46,352 nt of DNA, taken from contig CADCDW010000007.1 of the NCBI GenBank assembly GCA_902800325.1, forward strand, positions 1 through 46,352, given 5' to 3'. Below, piece after piece: positions 1,275-6,719 of this stretch. The position numbers and the translations under genes were made by a program. This DNA comes from an uncultured Lachnospiraceae bacterium (GTDB lineage Bacteria; Bacillota; Clostridia; Lachnospirales; Lachnospiraceae). Below the pieces are notes generated by a model, which was given only the letters and a program-made list of their open reading frames with translations, had not been told where the DNA came from and did no database searches. The stretch's first letter is position 1, and each line of letters opens with the position of its first letter.

Positions 1275-2493
1275 AGATATCATTAAGTATGTAACAAGGA
1301 GCCTTAAGCGATTGCAAGCATTGACATTTTTGATATATTTTTTTCTCATCCTCATCATTTTTTTGCAGTAAATATAACAGGTCTGCAACTTTGTCTAAAT
1401 CAGTCTCAGTATAGTTGTACCTACTTATTTCTTGTACACCGATTCTGATTCCGGTATAGAGTTTAGATACTCGTTTGTTTAGGGTTATATTGTACTTCAA
1501 TGCTCGTTTATATATTGTTTCTGTAAGTTGTTCATTAAACAAAAGAAATAATTGATGAGTATTAGTATATTTTTCAGCATTTATTTTTGCTACAGAAATA
1601 TTCCTTTCTTCAAGTTTCTTTCCCAAAATATTAGCTGTATCCTGGATTTTTTTCTCATATTCAAAATTTGTTTCTAGCTGTTCTATAAGTGCAAGACATA
1701 GTGCTGCTATATTATTAGGTTGAATATTTCTTAGTAATGTTGGAGAAATAGTATAATCAAGCTTATCAATGTATTCTTTATAGCATGTCATAATTAACCC
1801 ACATGTTGGACCAGGAAGTGTTTTATGAGTTCCCCCTATAAGTATAACTCTTTCACTATAATTTAATGGATTTGGAACTAAATTAGCAGCCATTAATCCC
1901 AATGTTTGAGAACCATCATATATCAATCCTGTGGTGTTGGGAAGTTTGATTTTTGAGAAATCAGGAACAGACAAAATATCTGATTGACAAAAAATCAGAA
2001 AATCAATTTTGTTTGACTTTAACATTTTATTAAGAGCATCATAATCAATTTGATATGATTTGAAATCATATGGTATACCAAGATATGTAATACCAAGATT
2101 ATCTAAAATATTTGCAAGTGATGGATGACCTCCGGTTTCTTTTAAGGTTATTGCGACTGTTGAATTTTTATTAATTAATGACATAATAAGTATTGCCATA
2201 CAATTCATCCCACTTAAAGTACGTGAATCAACATATGTTGCTCCATAGATTTCTGTGCACAATTCTTCTACAAGAGCAAGAAGAGGATAAATTTTATTAC
2301 TACCTATATTGTCTTTATCAATAATACGTGTTTTATACCCTTGAATATATTTACCTTCAAATATTGAAGACATTCCTTGCCGTACAAAATCAGACATATA
2401 TGTTTCAGCGGCGCAAAGTGGTATTTTCTTATTATTAAACTCTTCATATTCATCATATATTTTTTTTAATTTGTCTAAGTAGTAATTATTCAT
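1264..2493 (-). CDS. Orphan SHMT-like PLP-dependent enzyme
   Basis: The 409 residues follow the fold-type I serine hydroxymethyltransferase pattern. E30 sits in a CAAETYMS motif (SHMT: ASENY.S), GGH at 121-123, PLP-ring Asp at D193 (YDGSQTLGL), Schiff-base Lys K224 in GGTHKTLPGP, and the carboxylate-binding Arg in GIRIG (R350). Departures from housekeeping GlyA are clear: the His of the DMAH motif is Gln (DGSQ), HSGSQAN is replaced by LSGMNCM, and the GYPGKRYYGG segment is not conserved. It is therefore probably not the main one-carbon enzyme but a relative acting on another beta-hydroxy amino acid or aldehyde. The substrate cannot be told. It is AT-rich, stands alone, and converges with the TPR gene with an 11-base 3' overlap. 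The start ATG has only a weak upstream GGAACGGG. Confidence 0.75.
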   Translation of the reverse strand: MNNYYLDKLKKIYDEYEEFNNKKIPLCAAETYMSDFVRQGMSSIFEGKYIQGYKTRIIDKDNIGSNKIYPLLALVEELCTEIYGATYVDSRTLSGMNCMAILIMSLINKNSTVAITLKETGGHPSLANILDNLGITYLGIPYDFKSYQIDYDALNKMLKSNKIDFLIFCQSDILSVPDFSKIKLPNTTGLIYDGSQTLGLMAANLVPNPLNYSERVILIGGTHKTLPGPTCGLIMTCYKEYIDKLDYTISPTLLRNIQPNNIAALCLALIEQLETNFEYEKKIQDTANILGKKLEERNISVAKINAEKYTNTHQLFLLFNEQLTETIYKRALKYNITLNKRVSKLYTGIRIGVQEISRYNYTETDLDKVADLLYLLQKNDEDEKKIYQKCQCLQSLKAPCYILNDIFMV

Positions 2494-2883
2494 AGCAGGT
2501 ATCCCGTTCCTTTTAACCGATAATCAACAATTATCATTCAAAATCAAATCATTATAAAAAATCACATATAGTATGAAAGTATTTAATAAAGATTTACTGA
2601 TAAGACAAACAAGTTGCAATTCGAAGAGTATTTCATTAAGACTAATTTAATCAGAAAATTTTGTTATAAAAAGTCGTTATAATAGATTTTTTATATCATT
2701 TGTTACCAGTTTACCATCTTTAATTGCTTTGATTATCCCTGAACCGGTAACAAATTTTAATTTGCATAAAAAGTTAGATTGTGCTAACATCTTATATAAT
2801 TAAGAAATAATTCAAATGATAATATAAATCAGAATTAAAAAAATAAGAATTATTACAAGATAGAACTATTTGGAGATGATATA
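2494..2883. other. AT-rich intergenic stretch between divergent genes
   Basis: There are 390 bases without a supported gene. Visible items are a 9-base inverted repeat TTTGTTACC (2699-2707) / GGTAACAAA (2746-2754) and, nearer copA, a TATAAT at 2795-2800 with a small dyad GTTAG (2773-2777) / CTAAC (2784-2788) just upstream. The region must hold the promoters of both divergent genes. It probably also marks the border of the accessory patch. Confidence 0.5.
2773..2800 (+). promoter_or_regulatory. Candidate copA promoter with operator-like dyad
   Basis: A TATAAT hexamer at 2795-2800 lies 83 bases before copA. A GTTAG-N6-CTAAC dyad (2773-2788) covers the place of the -35 element and spacer, and no good -35 hexamer is seen. 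That arrangement would suit a metal-responsive activator or repressor. The dyad does not match the CopY box (TACAnnTGTA) or a CsoR site, so the regulator is unknown. Confidence 0.3.
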
Positions 2884-5631
2884 ATGCAACGTTATAATGT
2901 GACCGGTATGAGCTGTGCAGCGTGCAGCGCCAGAGTTGAAAAGGCTGTTTCCAAGGTAGAAGGCGTTGACTCAGTTGCAGTAAATCTATTAACCAATTCC
3001 ATGACGGTTGAGGGCGATGTAAGTGCCGATACTGTTATAAGAGCCGTAGAGGATGCAGGTTATGGTGCCGGTTTAAAGGATGATGCCGGTGATGCTAATG
3101 GTAAAAATACAAATACTTCTGTAAATTCAAACGATAAAGCTAACGAAAACATAGAATTTAAGAATATAAGAAAGAGATTCTTTATCTCGCTTGTTTTTTT
3201 AATTGTGCTCATGTATTTTTCGATGGGACATATGATGTTTGGATTTCCACTGCCGGCATTTTTTGATGGAAATCATGTGGCTATGGGGCTTATACAGCTT
3301 CTTTTGGCAGTTATTATAATGGTTATCAATCAGAAGTTTTTTATAAGTGGATTTAAAGGCTTCAGACATCTTGCGCCCAATATGGACAGCCTTGTTGCAC
3401 TTGGTTCGGGAGCTTCGTTTATATACAGCATGTGTGCGCTTTTTGCCATGACGGATGCGCAGGTTAGTGGAGATATGACTGCCGTAGAGCATTATATGGA
3501 TGAGCTTTATTTTGAGTCTGCGGCGATGATACTGGTGCTTATTACACTTGGAAAAATGCTTGAAGCATATTCGAAGGGAAGAACTACGGATGCCATAAAA
3601 GGTCTTATGAAGCTTGCGCCGGATACTGCGACGGTTTTACGGGACGGCAAAGAGGTAACGATTTCTGCCAATGAGGTAATGGTAGGAGATACATTTGTCG
3701 TAAGACCGGGTGAGAGAATTCCGGTTGATGGAAGGATTGTATCGGGTAGTACAAGTATAGACGAAAGTGCCTTAACCGGCGAGAGTATACCGGTTGATAA
3801 AGAGGTTGGAAATGAGGTTAAGACCGCGACGATCAACCTTTCAGGTTTTGTAACATGCGAGGCAAAAAAAGTTGGCGAGGATACAACCCTGTCCCAGATA
3901 ATAAGGATGGTCAGTGATGCAGCAGCTACCAAAGCACCGATTGCCAAAATTGCAGATAAAGTTTCCGGAGTATTTGTACCGATAGTTATAGGCATCGCGC
4001 TTATAACATATATAGTCTGGACTATAGCCGGATACGAAGTTGGTTTTTCACTGGCAAGAGCGGTTTCGGTGTTGGTTATAAGCTGCCCTTGTGCACTCGG
4101 ACTCGCTACACCTGTTGCAATTATGGTCGGAAGTGGTCTGGGAGCTAAAAACGGCATCTTATTTAAAAATGCAACTGCACTTGAAAATGCCGGTAAGGCG
4201 GATGTGATACTTCTTGACAAGACAGGAACTATAACTAAGGGCATACCGGTTGTAACGGATGTGATTTCATTATCTGAATTAACAGGAAAGACTGAAATAG
4301 CCGGAAGCGATAGTTATAATAATAAAATAATTGATAAAAGTATTGATAAAAGTGGTGGCTATATAAATGATGATAAGAGATTACTCATAGAAAAGGCCTA
4401 TGCCTTAGAGAAAAAGAGTGAGCATCCGCTTGCTAAAGCGATAGTTTCTTATTGCGAGAATCCGGACGATTCTAAAGCAGATAAAAAGGCAGATTCAAAT
4501 GAAGCTTCGAAAGGCGGCTCAAAATCTGATCAAGGGACGTTTGTTTTAAATGATATAGAGATTGAAGAATTTGAAAACCACGCAGGCAACGGACTAAGTG
4601 GCAAAATAGCCGGGAAAGATATATACGCCGGAAATCGAAGATATATATCGGACAAGATAAAGTTAAGTAACGATGTCATCAAAAAGTTAGATGAACTTTC
4701 TTCTGAGGGTAAAACTCCGATGCTGTTTTGTGATGGGGATAAGCTGCTTGGAATAATTGCAGTTGCGGATGTTTTAAAAGATGACAGCATATCTGCTATA
4801 AATGAATTAAAGTCTATGGGCAAAACTGTCGTTATGGTTACGGGAGATAACAAAAAGACTGCTGATGCTATAGGCAAAAAAGCCGGAGTTGATGAGATAA
4901 TTGCAGAGGTTATGCCGGAAAGCAAGGCTAAGGTTGTACTTGATTATATCAATCAGGGCAAGAAGGTCATTATGGTCGGTGACGGTATAAATGATGCACC
5001 GGCACTTACACAGGCAGATGTAGGTATTGCAATCGGTTCAGGAACGGACATAGCTATAGATTCTGCCGATGTTGTTTTGATGAAAAATGAGCTAAGTGAT
5101 GTGACGGCAGCAGTAAGGCTAAGTAAAGCGACTATAAAAAATATACATGAAAACCTGTTTTGGGCATTTTTCTATAATATCATCGGTATTCCACTTGCTG
5201 CCGGTGTGTGGTATCCTTTGTTTGGCTGGCTTTTAAATCCGATGTTTGGAGCTGCGGCCATGAGTATGTCAAGTGTATGTGTGGTGACAAATGCACTCAG
5301 ACTAAATCTGAAAAAGATTAAAAATAATCCATATGATGAAAAAGTTATAAATCAGGAAACAAAAAGTAAGATAATAAGCGAAGATAAATTATATAATAAT
5401 GAAATAAAGGAGGAAAATAATATGCAGAAAACAATGACTATCGAAGGAATGATGTGTGCTCATTGTGAGGCAAGAGTAAAAAAAGCGCTTGAAGCGATAG
5501 ACGGAGTAACTGAGGCTTTACCAAGCCATGAGAAAAATGAGGCAGTTGTTACATTTTCAAAGGAAGTATCTGATGATGTCTTAAAGAAAGCTGTCGAGGA
5601 TCAGGATTATAAGGTTACAGGTATAAAATAA
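2884..5631 (+). CDS. copA: Copper-exporting P1B-type ATPase fused to a C-terminal CopZ-like domain
   Basis: This membrane pump drives Cu(I) out of the cytoplasm using ATP. The 915 residues hold an N-terminal heavy-metal-associated domain (CxxC at C11/C14), a Lys/Asn-rich linker, membrane helices, the actuator loop (TGES), the ion-binding CPC motif (401-403), the phosphorylated Asp D445 in DKTGT, and GDGINDAP around residue 700. The core ends near residue 810. After a polar, AT-rich linker a second HMA domain follows (from M847, CxxC at C858/C861). That position is unusual: CopZ is normally a separate small protein. A strong ribosome binding site precedes the codon of M847, so the last 69 residues may also be made alone. 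The start is supported by GGAGATGAT upstream. Copper, rather than other metals, is inferred from CPC and the paired CxxC domains. Confidence 0.93.
5406..5631 (+). CDS. copZ: Internal in-frame start: possible free CopZ copper chaperone
   Basis: Within copA, AAAGGAGG at 5406-5413 stands 8 bases before an ATG at 5422-5424 that is in the same frame (residue 847 of the fusion). Translation from there gives a complete 69-residue HMA protein of CopZ size, with the MxCAHC copper site (C858/C861 of the fusion). The linker before it (about residues 810-846) is very AT-rich and reads like a former intergenic gap that lost its stop codon. The entry start marks the ribosome binding site; coding begins at 5422. 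The known parallel is E. coli copA, where a frameshift gives a separate chaperone, but here the device would be internal initiation. Use of this start is inference. Confidence 0.55.
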
Positions 5632-5777
5632 TCTAAAAAAAGTAAAAATATTATTTAAAATACCCTCAAAAAAGTATACAAATAAAGCAAATTTGTGTTA
5701 TCATATATTATGAGGTTGTTTGGCGGTTGATTATGTCGCAATAACCATATCAAATATAAAAAACGGGGGGATGCACC

Positions 5778-6719
5778 ATGATTAGCAGATATATAACTGA
5801 TGATGGTAAATTTAGAGAAATTGAAGATTATGAAAATGGTATGTGGATTAATCTTACAGCCCCCACTCAGGAGGAAAGTATCGAAATATCCAAACACTAC
5901 GATATAGATTTGCCGGATATAAGAGCAGCTCTTGACGAAGAAGAATCTTCACGTGTGGATATCAATGACAATTATGTGCTTGTAATATTTGACATCCCGA
6001 CAGTTGAGATACGTCATAATCAGGAAGCATATACTACTATACCTCTTGGTATTATATGGACAGATGATTCAATTATAACCATATGCTCTGTTGAGACTCC
6101 GGTTATAAAGCATTTTATAATGAATAAGCTTAAGGATTTTACCACCAAAAAGAAGGTAAGATTTACTTATCAGATTCTTTACCGTACCAGCATGCTGTAT
6201 CAGTCATACCTTAGGGTTATTGACAGAAAGCGTCTTGAAATGGAAGAAAAGATGGGTGGAGTTATGGAGGATTCGGATATCATAATCTTACACGAGCTTG
6301 AATCCAACCTTGTATACTTTGATACATCTCTTCGTGCTAACCGTATGATTGTAGACAGATTGACCAGATACAGTGGTATAAAGAAATTTCCGGAGGATCA
6401 TGAACTTTTAGATGATGTGATTGTCGAAAATCTACAGGCTATAGAGATGACACAGATTTACCGTGACATCATAAAAGGTACAAGGGAACTTATGTCGACA
6501 GTTATTGACAACCGTCTTAACAATATGATGAAATACCTTGCTGCGATAACGATTGTCATGTCTATACCTACTATCATATCCGGTTTGTACGGAATGAATG
6601 TTGCTGGAAGATGGATGCCGCTTTCAAGTACACCTTATGGCTTTTATATAATATGCGGTATTACGGCACTTATTTGCTTTATTGTAATGTGGGTTTTAAG
6701 AAAAAAGAAGATGTTGTGA
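5778..6719 (+). CDS. corA: CorA-family divalent cation transporter
   Basis: A 313-residue protein with a large soluble N-terminal part, a long helical stalk (about 140-250) and two C-terminal membrane segments (about 251-271 and 287-306). The family signature GMN follows the first segment (G272-M273-N274, in LYGMNV). CorA proteins form pentameric Mg2+/Co2+ channels in the cytoplasmic membrane. The loop between the helices is longer and less acidic than the usual MPEL type, so selectivity is open. The gene is preceded by a G-rich site (GGGGGG at 5765-5770). It stands 146 bases after copA and 29 bases before the acyltransferase, with which it may be co-transcribed. Confidence 0.9.
   Translation: MISRYITDDGKFREIEDYENGMWINLTAPTQEESIEISKHYDIDLPDIRAALDEEESSRVDINDNYVLVIFDIPTVEIRHNQEAYTTIPLGIIWTDDSIITICSVETPVIKHFIMNKLKDFTTKKKVRFTYQILYRTSMLYQSYLRVIDRKRLEMEEKMGGVMEDSDIIILHELESNLVYFDTSLRANRMIVDRLTRYSGIKKFPEDHELLDDVIVENLQAIEMTQIYRDIIKGTRELMSTVIDNRLNNMMKYLAAITIVMSIPTIISGLYGMNVAGRWMPLSSTPYGFYIICGITALICFIVMWVLRKKKML

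Follow-up and report, generated by a model that had tools for sequence, protein, structure and literature searches.

A fused copA-copZ gene with a conserved candidate internal start for a free CopZ-type copper chaperone in Clostridia

In Escherichia coli, the chaperone CopA(Z) is the N-terminal domain of the copper pump CopA; the copA/CopA(Z) system was reportedly worked out by Meydan et al. in 2017 and by Drees et al. in 2017. Two papers refer to this E. coli work (PMC7558416 and PMC10187127); the second ascribes production of the chaperone to programmed frameshifting, and gives as the usual arrangement an operon in which copZ accompanies copA as a gene of its own. Other papers describe in-frame internal starts for the two-polypeptide phage endolysins (PMC9430671; CTP1L, PMC4777826), internal translation starts in SctQ/HrcQ (PMC8553256, PMC4295842), and the making of Cas11b inside cas8b (PMC11899642). 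The gene examined here resembles the copA-copZ operon in that the same two proteins are encoded in the same place—relatives in our sample have the operon form—and differs from it in having no stop between the genes, such that the pump also bears the chaperone domain; as the stop is absent, initiation of CopZ cannot use termination-reinitiation.

The gene lies in what we call the window: the whole stretch of DNA that was analysed, 46,352 nucleotides from an uncultured Lachnospiraceae bacterium. Its features are as follows.

2884..5631, + strand: fused copA-copZ open reading frame (ORF) of 915 amino acids, encoding a CopA with N- and C-terminal HMA domains (ORF list, Pfam, TIGR01511).
2872..2875, + strand: GGAG, core of the Shine-Dalgarno (SD) sequence for copA's own ATG at 2884 (sequence; -6.9 kcal/mol).
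2893..3063, + strand: N-terminal HMA domain of the GMSCAAC type, metal-binding domain of the pump (PF00403, 69.8 bits).
5305..5421, + strand: linker past NALRL, the last motif of the ATPase core; AT-rich and intergenic-like.
5406..5413, + strand: AAAGGAGG, the internal SD sequence (-10.9 kcal/mol).
5422..5424, + strand: in-frame ATG inside the ORF, coding for Met847 of the full-length protein and the predicted Met1 of CopZ.
5422..5631, + strand: copZ, a complete 69-residue CopZ-type HMA domain (GMMCAHC) that doubles as the C-terminal end of the full-length protein (PF00403, 48.8 bits).

Reading along the ORF (2884-5631, + strand), we see no stop ahead of the C-terminal CopZ-like domain. Pfam finds E1-E2 ATPase, hydrolase and two HMA stretches in the 915-residue protein, which also exceeds the cut-off of TIGR01511 (copper-translocating P-type ATPase; 568.8 bits against 397) and carries the CPC and DKTGT motifs; with these hallmarks of a P1B-1 copper ATPase (CopA), the predicted product is recognisably a copper-exporting P1B-type ATPase. 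The NALRL motif of the ATPase core ends at 5304. Beyond it, the linker had been called AT-rich in an earlier, sequence-only reading, and rightly so: GC content is 19.3% over 5303-5421 as against 41.3% upstream in copA (2884-5302). That reading had also placed AAAGGAGG 8 nt before an in-frame ATG ahead of the C-terminal HMA domain, and both are indeed found there, at 5406-5413 and 5422 (codon 847). The combination AAAGGAGG-N8-ATG has this single occurrence on both strands of the window, against a mean of 0.03 over 100 dinucleotide shuffles (a match in 3 of them). Its predicted pairing with the anti-SD is -10.9 kcal/mol, compared to -6.9 kcal/mol at copA's own start; all SD energies are calculated against CACCUCCUU as the presumed anti-SD of this genome and its relatives. 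Folding of the 81 nt around the ribosome binding site gave no notable predicted structure (MFE -3.7 kcal/mol, z 0.07), and a CopY-type operator, whose motif we assume to be TACANNTGTA, gave 0 matches in the window against 0.96 expected. On the same strand, 3' of copA-copZ, lies what is presumably a CorA-like magnesium transporter gene (5778-6719).

For the comparison with relatives, three sets of loci were brought together. Set A comprised 30 loci from 37 genomes of the genus plus 80 named loci, and yielded a CopA tail in 108 of 110 (in L020 and L054 the pattern for the CopA end was unmatched); once 6 repeats among the 108 had been dropped, 102 were distinct, and with 5 lacking the C-terminal domain (L030 being cut by a contig end) 97 were fused. 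Sets B and C are fused loci from searches of 196 genomes of the order and 291 genomes of the class, with 88 and 80 left after removal of duplicates. Together the three sets make 265 distinct fused genes, 8 duplicates and the contig-edge locus L241 having been taken out. The loci are related by descent and the fused ones come from the upper ranks of lists sorted by similarity to CopZ or CopA, so the counts below are not counts of independent events; separate copZ loci were added on purpose, and the sample gives no natural share of fused versus separate genes. A locus was called as having an internal start if an in-frame start codon with an SD of -4 kcal/mol or lower stood within the 13 codons before the domain's Gly. 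Because the best candidate among several codons is picked, this procedure is biased towards the site; the random and shuffle controls were given the same picking, and the codon and energy test of set A used a fixed position instead (moved by hand in L032).

The 69-residue piece aligns, along almost all of its length, to solved CopZ structures (6ff2, residues 2-65; 1k0v, residues 2-68; 2qif, residues 2-65), and scores 87.5 bits with a profile of separate CopZs versus 47.4 bits with a profile of N-terminal HMA domains; across the sample, the separate-CopZ profile gives the better score for all 265 C-terminal domains, by a mean of 41.8 bits. The residue before the second Cys follows the same division: His in 262 of the 265 C-terminal domains (Asn in 3) and in 36 of 37 separate CopZs, whereas the 214 N-terminal domains have Ala (211) or Ser (3) there. 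The window's domain is thus a complete HMA with MxCxxC and with His before the second Cys, as in separate CopZs. Tested against the two NCBIfam CopZ models, the 69-residue piece remains below the cut-offs (54.6 against 85 for NF047957; 54.2 against 91 for NF033795), for which reason we name it CopZ-like by domain and neighbourhood; the whole 915-residue protein passes NF047957 (109.2, two matched stretches). By these profile and residue comparisons, the fused C-terminal domain resembles a separate CopZ and is unlike the pump's own N-terminal domain.

The window's own genome (G000; 97.2% complete, 145 contigs) gave four HMA matches, two of which lie within CopA. The third, of 72 residues with DCANCA, sits between presumed ArsR-like and CadA-like ATPase genes, and the fourth, of 82 residues with MMCTMC, adjoins a presumed FeoB-like fragment; these neighbour names rest on reading of the sequence rather than on a family search. 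No other HMA of the CxHC type was found in this assembly, and since the other two carry DCANCA and MMCTMC, the fused domain is the only CopZ-type HMA seen there. The DCANCA protein (L002, 1489-1707 on contig C63 of G000) looks like a detached N-terminal domain of a CadA/ZntA-like ATPase; several further genomes of the genus also have small HMA frames that, as judged by position, lie near a pump of Zn/Cd type.

An in-frame start with an SD of -4 kcal/mol or lower stands just before the C-terminal domain in 255 of the 265 fused CopAs (96%; start codons ATG in 251, GTG in 3 and TTG in 1), and the SD reaches -8 or lower in 207 of 265 (78%). At random in-frame positions put through the same procedure, the corresponding figures are 2012/10600 (19%) and 162/10600 (1.5%); with synonymous shuffling of the 20 codons before the Gly, they are 3375/5300 (64%) and 1384/5300 (26%). 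At the fixed position in set A (97 genes), the mean SD energy is -9.24 kcal/mol, versus -6.01 (sd of mean 0.28) in synonymous shuffles; other internal in-frame ATGs of the set (n=2772) average -2.52. Codon choice follows suit: where the SD lies, Lys is AAG in 59 of 66 instances and Glu is GAG in 75 of 78, the shares over the set A genes as a whole being about 51% and 48%.

In 205 genes the GG of the SD core occupies codon register 2 (mostly KEx); it is in register 0 in 40 (mostly KGx) and in register 1 in 9 (mostly ERx), and one gene has no core. Occurring in all three registers, the core is therefore encoded by different amino acids. Counted back from the Gly, the start codon is 8 codons away in 222 genes and 6, 7, 9, 10, 11 or 12 codons away in 33; the SD shifts along with it, class means of the spacing staying between 9.5 and 11.5 nt (11 nt in 187 of 254 single genes, range 4 to 16). 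In 251 fused genes, core and start are separated by a linker of anywhere between 11 and 107 residues, whose GC content is below that of the CopA body in 250 of the 251. As a control, the second domain of CopAs with tandem N-terminal HMA domains showed a start with an SD of -6 or lower in 0 of 10 genes, and of -4 or lower in 1 of 10. In L114, part of the internal start region is duplicated in tandem (MEKTMEKTM), and the SD found at the fixed position is weak (-3.3).

An in-frame start whose SD is properly spaced and more conserved than coding alone would require is the mark of a nested gene with an internal start, and nearly all the fused genes of the sample carry one. Window shuffles, random positions and synonymous shuffles together reject a chance SD, and the comparison speaks against chance or relic as the source of the apparent internal start. 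That one gene might supply a free 69-residue CopZ besides the pump, as the sequence-only reading had proposed, gains support from the 255 of 265 genes with start and SD. The internal SD is not generally the stronger of the two, as might be supposed from the window: in 206 pairs it surpasses the SD of copA itself in 95, falls short of it in 109 and equals it in 2, and because it is not systematically stronger across the family, a fixed excess of chaperone cannot be deduced from SD strength alone.

Assembly error as the source of the open frame is very unlikely, and we reject it, because 265 distinct fused genes were found. Judged from these assemblies, the fused gene is not peculiar to this genome: it recurs in genomes from across the class and in further classes of the phylum, from which 11 fused loci were examined, all with ATG and an SD of -5.2 to -13.8 kcal/mol (the twelfth locus fetched in that set, L330, belongs to the window's own family). 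At least 13 further long-frame matches outside the class stand among the matches listed. Such a distribution argues that the copA-copZ fusion is probably old.

A separate copZ lies directly 3' of copA in several clades, mostly with its own SD and ATG. FastTree was used to build a tree of 162 CopA cores—132 fused with start, 10 fused without, 16 scored 'S' (a separate copZ at most 400 nt behind copA) and 4 without a C-terminal domain—whose rows were chosen and are no census, with about three of four ordinary set A genes left out. Family f24 is mixed, L195 and L203 being fused and L205, L208, L211, L212, L215 and L220 separate. In L215, only the adjacent stops TAA TAG, the second of which overlaps the SD, interrupt a frame that otherwise continues from the end of copA to that of copZ; there the sequence runs AAA TAA TAG GAG GTT AAT ATT ATG, compared with CAT AAG GAG GAA AAA AGA ATG in the fused L204, from another family, which has AAG GAG where L215 has its stops. 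The search among relatives for a stop between copA and copZ, suggested in the sequence-only reading, thus had a positive outcome; the related proposal, that the linker is a former intergenic region whose stop was lost, is supported in that relatives do have stops between the two genes at the same place, although the tree, being unrooted, does not discriminate as to direction. The fused/unfused state changes at least 7 times on the tree and the internal start is lost in at least 9 changes (at least 5 counting only well-supported branches); many forks are weak, and as the tree has no root, gains and losses, or fusion and fission, are indistinguishable on it. Five CopAs of the same genus (L012, L013, L015-L017) end right past NALRL without a C-terminal CopZ domain, and fall into two separate clades (L016, a repeat, is outside the tree). 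A separate CopZ was not recognised in these genomes, leaving aside their small HMA frames, five of which are near a pump of Zn/Cd type, by position.

Free CopZ from the fused gene would not be kept in every lineage, as 10 of the 265 fused genes have no start or SD (L096, L147, L150, L152, L156, L168, L193, L283, L290 and L307). Another soluble-looking HMA gene lies within 80 nt of copA in L096, L147, L150 and L156, and elsewhere in the genome in L152; no other CopZ gene was seen for L168, L193, L283, L290 or L307, where the whole-genome HMA search covered L168 and L193 and the statement excludes two small, unread HMA frames in the genome of L168. Among the 233 of 265 genes with at least 400 nt downstream (many with short upstream flanks, and L193 and L290 falling out), an HMA gene beside copA accompanies 4 of 8 genes that lost the start and 8 of 225 that have it (Fisher p 2.6e-4). 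On reading, the latter 8 comprise seven Cys-rich HMA proteins of membrane-anchored look and one gene, in L086, that proves not to be an HMA gene; none is a CopZ. The neighbour in L147, 13 nt downstream of copA, resembles the HMA protein by the FeoB-like fragment of the window's genome rather than a CopZ, and the HMA neighbours of L096 and L150 are without the His of CxHC. The association of a lost start with an HMA neighbour of copA is suggestive, in what was an exploratory comparison. In seven loci (L037, L066, L080, L104, L113, L255 and L261), a small HMA protein gene overlaps the fused copA or lies within 310 nt upstream of it; these are frames of 123-143 residues with a hydrophobic N-terminus, a Cys-rich stretch of GCCGG type and an HMA domain.

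How else might the conserved signals be read? The Lys-Glu-rich stretch and the Met could be kept for the protein's sake, as linker motif and first strand of the domain, with the likeness to an SD a by-product of Lys and Glu codons; such linkers are SD-like by themselves, as the 26% (-8 or lower) and 64% (-4 or lower) of the synonymous shuffles attest, yet the observed shares are higher (78% and 96%), the SD occurs in three codon registers with different amino acids, the preference for AAG and GAG is absent from the genes as a whole, and the tandem N-terminal domains yield next to no such sites (0/10 and 1/10). We consider this account very improbable; a protein-level motif alone is rejected by codon choice, codon registers and synonymous shuffles. 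Slightly less credible still is that the signals are relics, decaying after a recent or neutral fusion: the 10 genes that lost their start, the repeated losses on the tree and a linker GC content that remains intergenic-like all lend it something, while intact signals in 132 of the 162 chosen rows across a class-wide tree, and the fact that start signals outlast near-complete turnover of the linker sequence, count against it. Least probable of all is a ribosome pause site that aids membrane insertion or folding of the pump without initiation. The SD-like sequence does lie shortly past the end of the ATPase core (NALRL, 5304); a pause, however, needs neither a start codon nor fixed spacing, and start and SD are present in 255 of 265 genes and shift together, and the distance of the SD from the membrane core is not constant, because the linker varies from 11 to 107 residues.

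A fourth alternative, unlikely although less so than the other three, is that free CopZ comes from a separate short transcript starting inside copA and not from the full-length mRNA. In its favour is one weak promoter-like match on the + strand (5308-5337, CTGAAA-18-TATGAT, 9 of 12); against it, the region 2490-5800 holds 23 such matches versus 12.3 (sd 4.3) in shuffles, so that a single weak match means little. A short transcript would in any case alter only the source of the mRNA, with use of the start unchanged.

We are therefore left with a fused copA-copZ gene with an internal start under selection, yielding a pump with a tethered chaperone as well as free CopZ and originating from neighbouring genes, as the explanation that is very probably correct. 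The ORF, its internal SD and start are present in the DNA, their conservation exceeds that in the controls, and relatives carry a separate copZ at the equivalent place. We envisage that copA and copZ were at first neighbouring genes, that loss of the stop between them would have created one ORF, and that the SD and start codon of copZ would have been retained after the fusion and maintained by selection. Ribosomes starting at 2884 would make the long, Cu(I)-exporting CopA with its tethered C-terminal CopZ domain, and others, starting at 5422 on the same mRNA, would make a free CopZ of 69 residues, which may then collect cytosolic Cu(I) and hand it to the pump.

A C-terminal metal-binding domain is reported for the CopA of Archaeoglobus fulgidus (PMC7558416, PMC11970713). 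According to the second paper, citing earlier work, Cu(I) passes straight from the CopZ of that organism to the membrane domain, a transfer of which isolated metal-binding domains proved incapable in vitro; a terminal metal-binding domain has also been proposed as a regulator of the pump (PMC11970713). A use for a free chaperone beside the tethered one would fit these findings.

More tentatively, and with rather less than even credence on our part, we suggest that the usual gene for a copper pump in most Clostridia, and in some classes neighbouring them, may be a one-gene, two-protein unit, an operon that was fused with the copZ start kept, in which ribosome traffic occluding the internal ribosome binding site would set the ratio of pump to chaperone in a manner distinct from operons and from the E. 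coli frameshift. If the internal start is used, the copper chaperone of many anaerobes of the group is encoded within the pump gene itself, and the free CopZ escapes any annotation that allows each locus a single coding sequence. There would then be, beside the E. coli frameshift, a second route to pump and chaperone from one copA, which suggests that their joint production is useful in itself; and the three natural arrangements—fused with start, fused without, and separate—offer a comparison by which to ask what a tethered chaperone does beyond a free one.

Among the titles and abstract openings listed by full-text searches of open literature (subscription papers and preprints lying outside it), we found no description of an internal start giving CopZ from copA. 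We provisionally regard the internal-start copA-copZ as new within that literature, in-frame internal starts and the E. coli copA frameshift being already known. The phage endolysins share with this gene a shorter second polypeptide, an in-frame internal start and a common stop codon; the short endolysin product can join its own enzyme as a subunit, whereas the short product here would serve the long one as a free metal carrier. SctQ/HrcQ and Cas11b likewise arise as second proteins by in-frame internal initiation in a larger gene, and are unrelated proteins without a pump-chaperone fusion. The CopZ of A. fulgidus is described as fused to an iron-sulfur domain (PMC7558416), unlike the CopZ here. 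Closest in outcome is E. coli copA/CopA(Z), where one copA gene likewise supplies both the complete pump and a small chaperone of CopZ type; there it is the N-terminal domain that is released, by frameshifting, whereas here it would be a C-terminal domain resembling a separate copZ product, made by internal initiation, and this C-terminal place of the CopZ-type domain argues against membership in the E. coli frameshift system.
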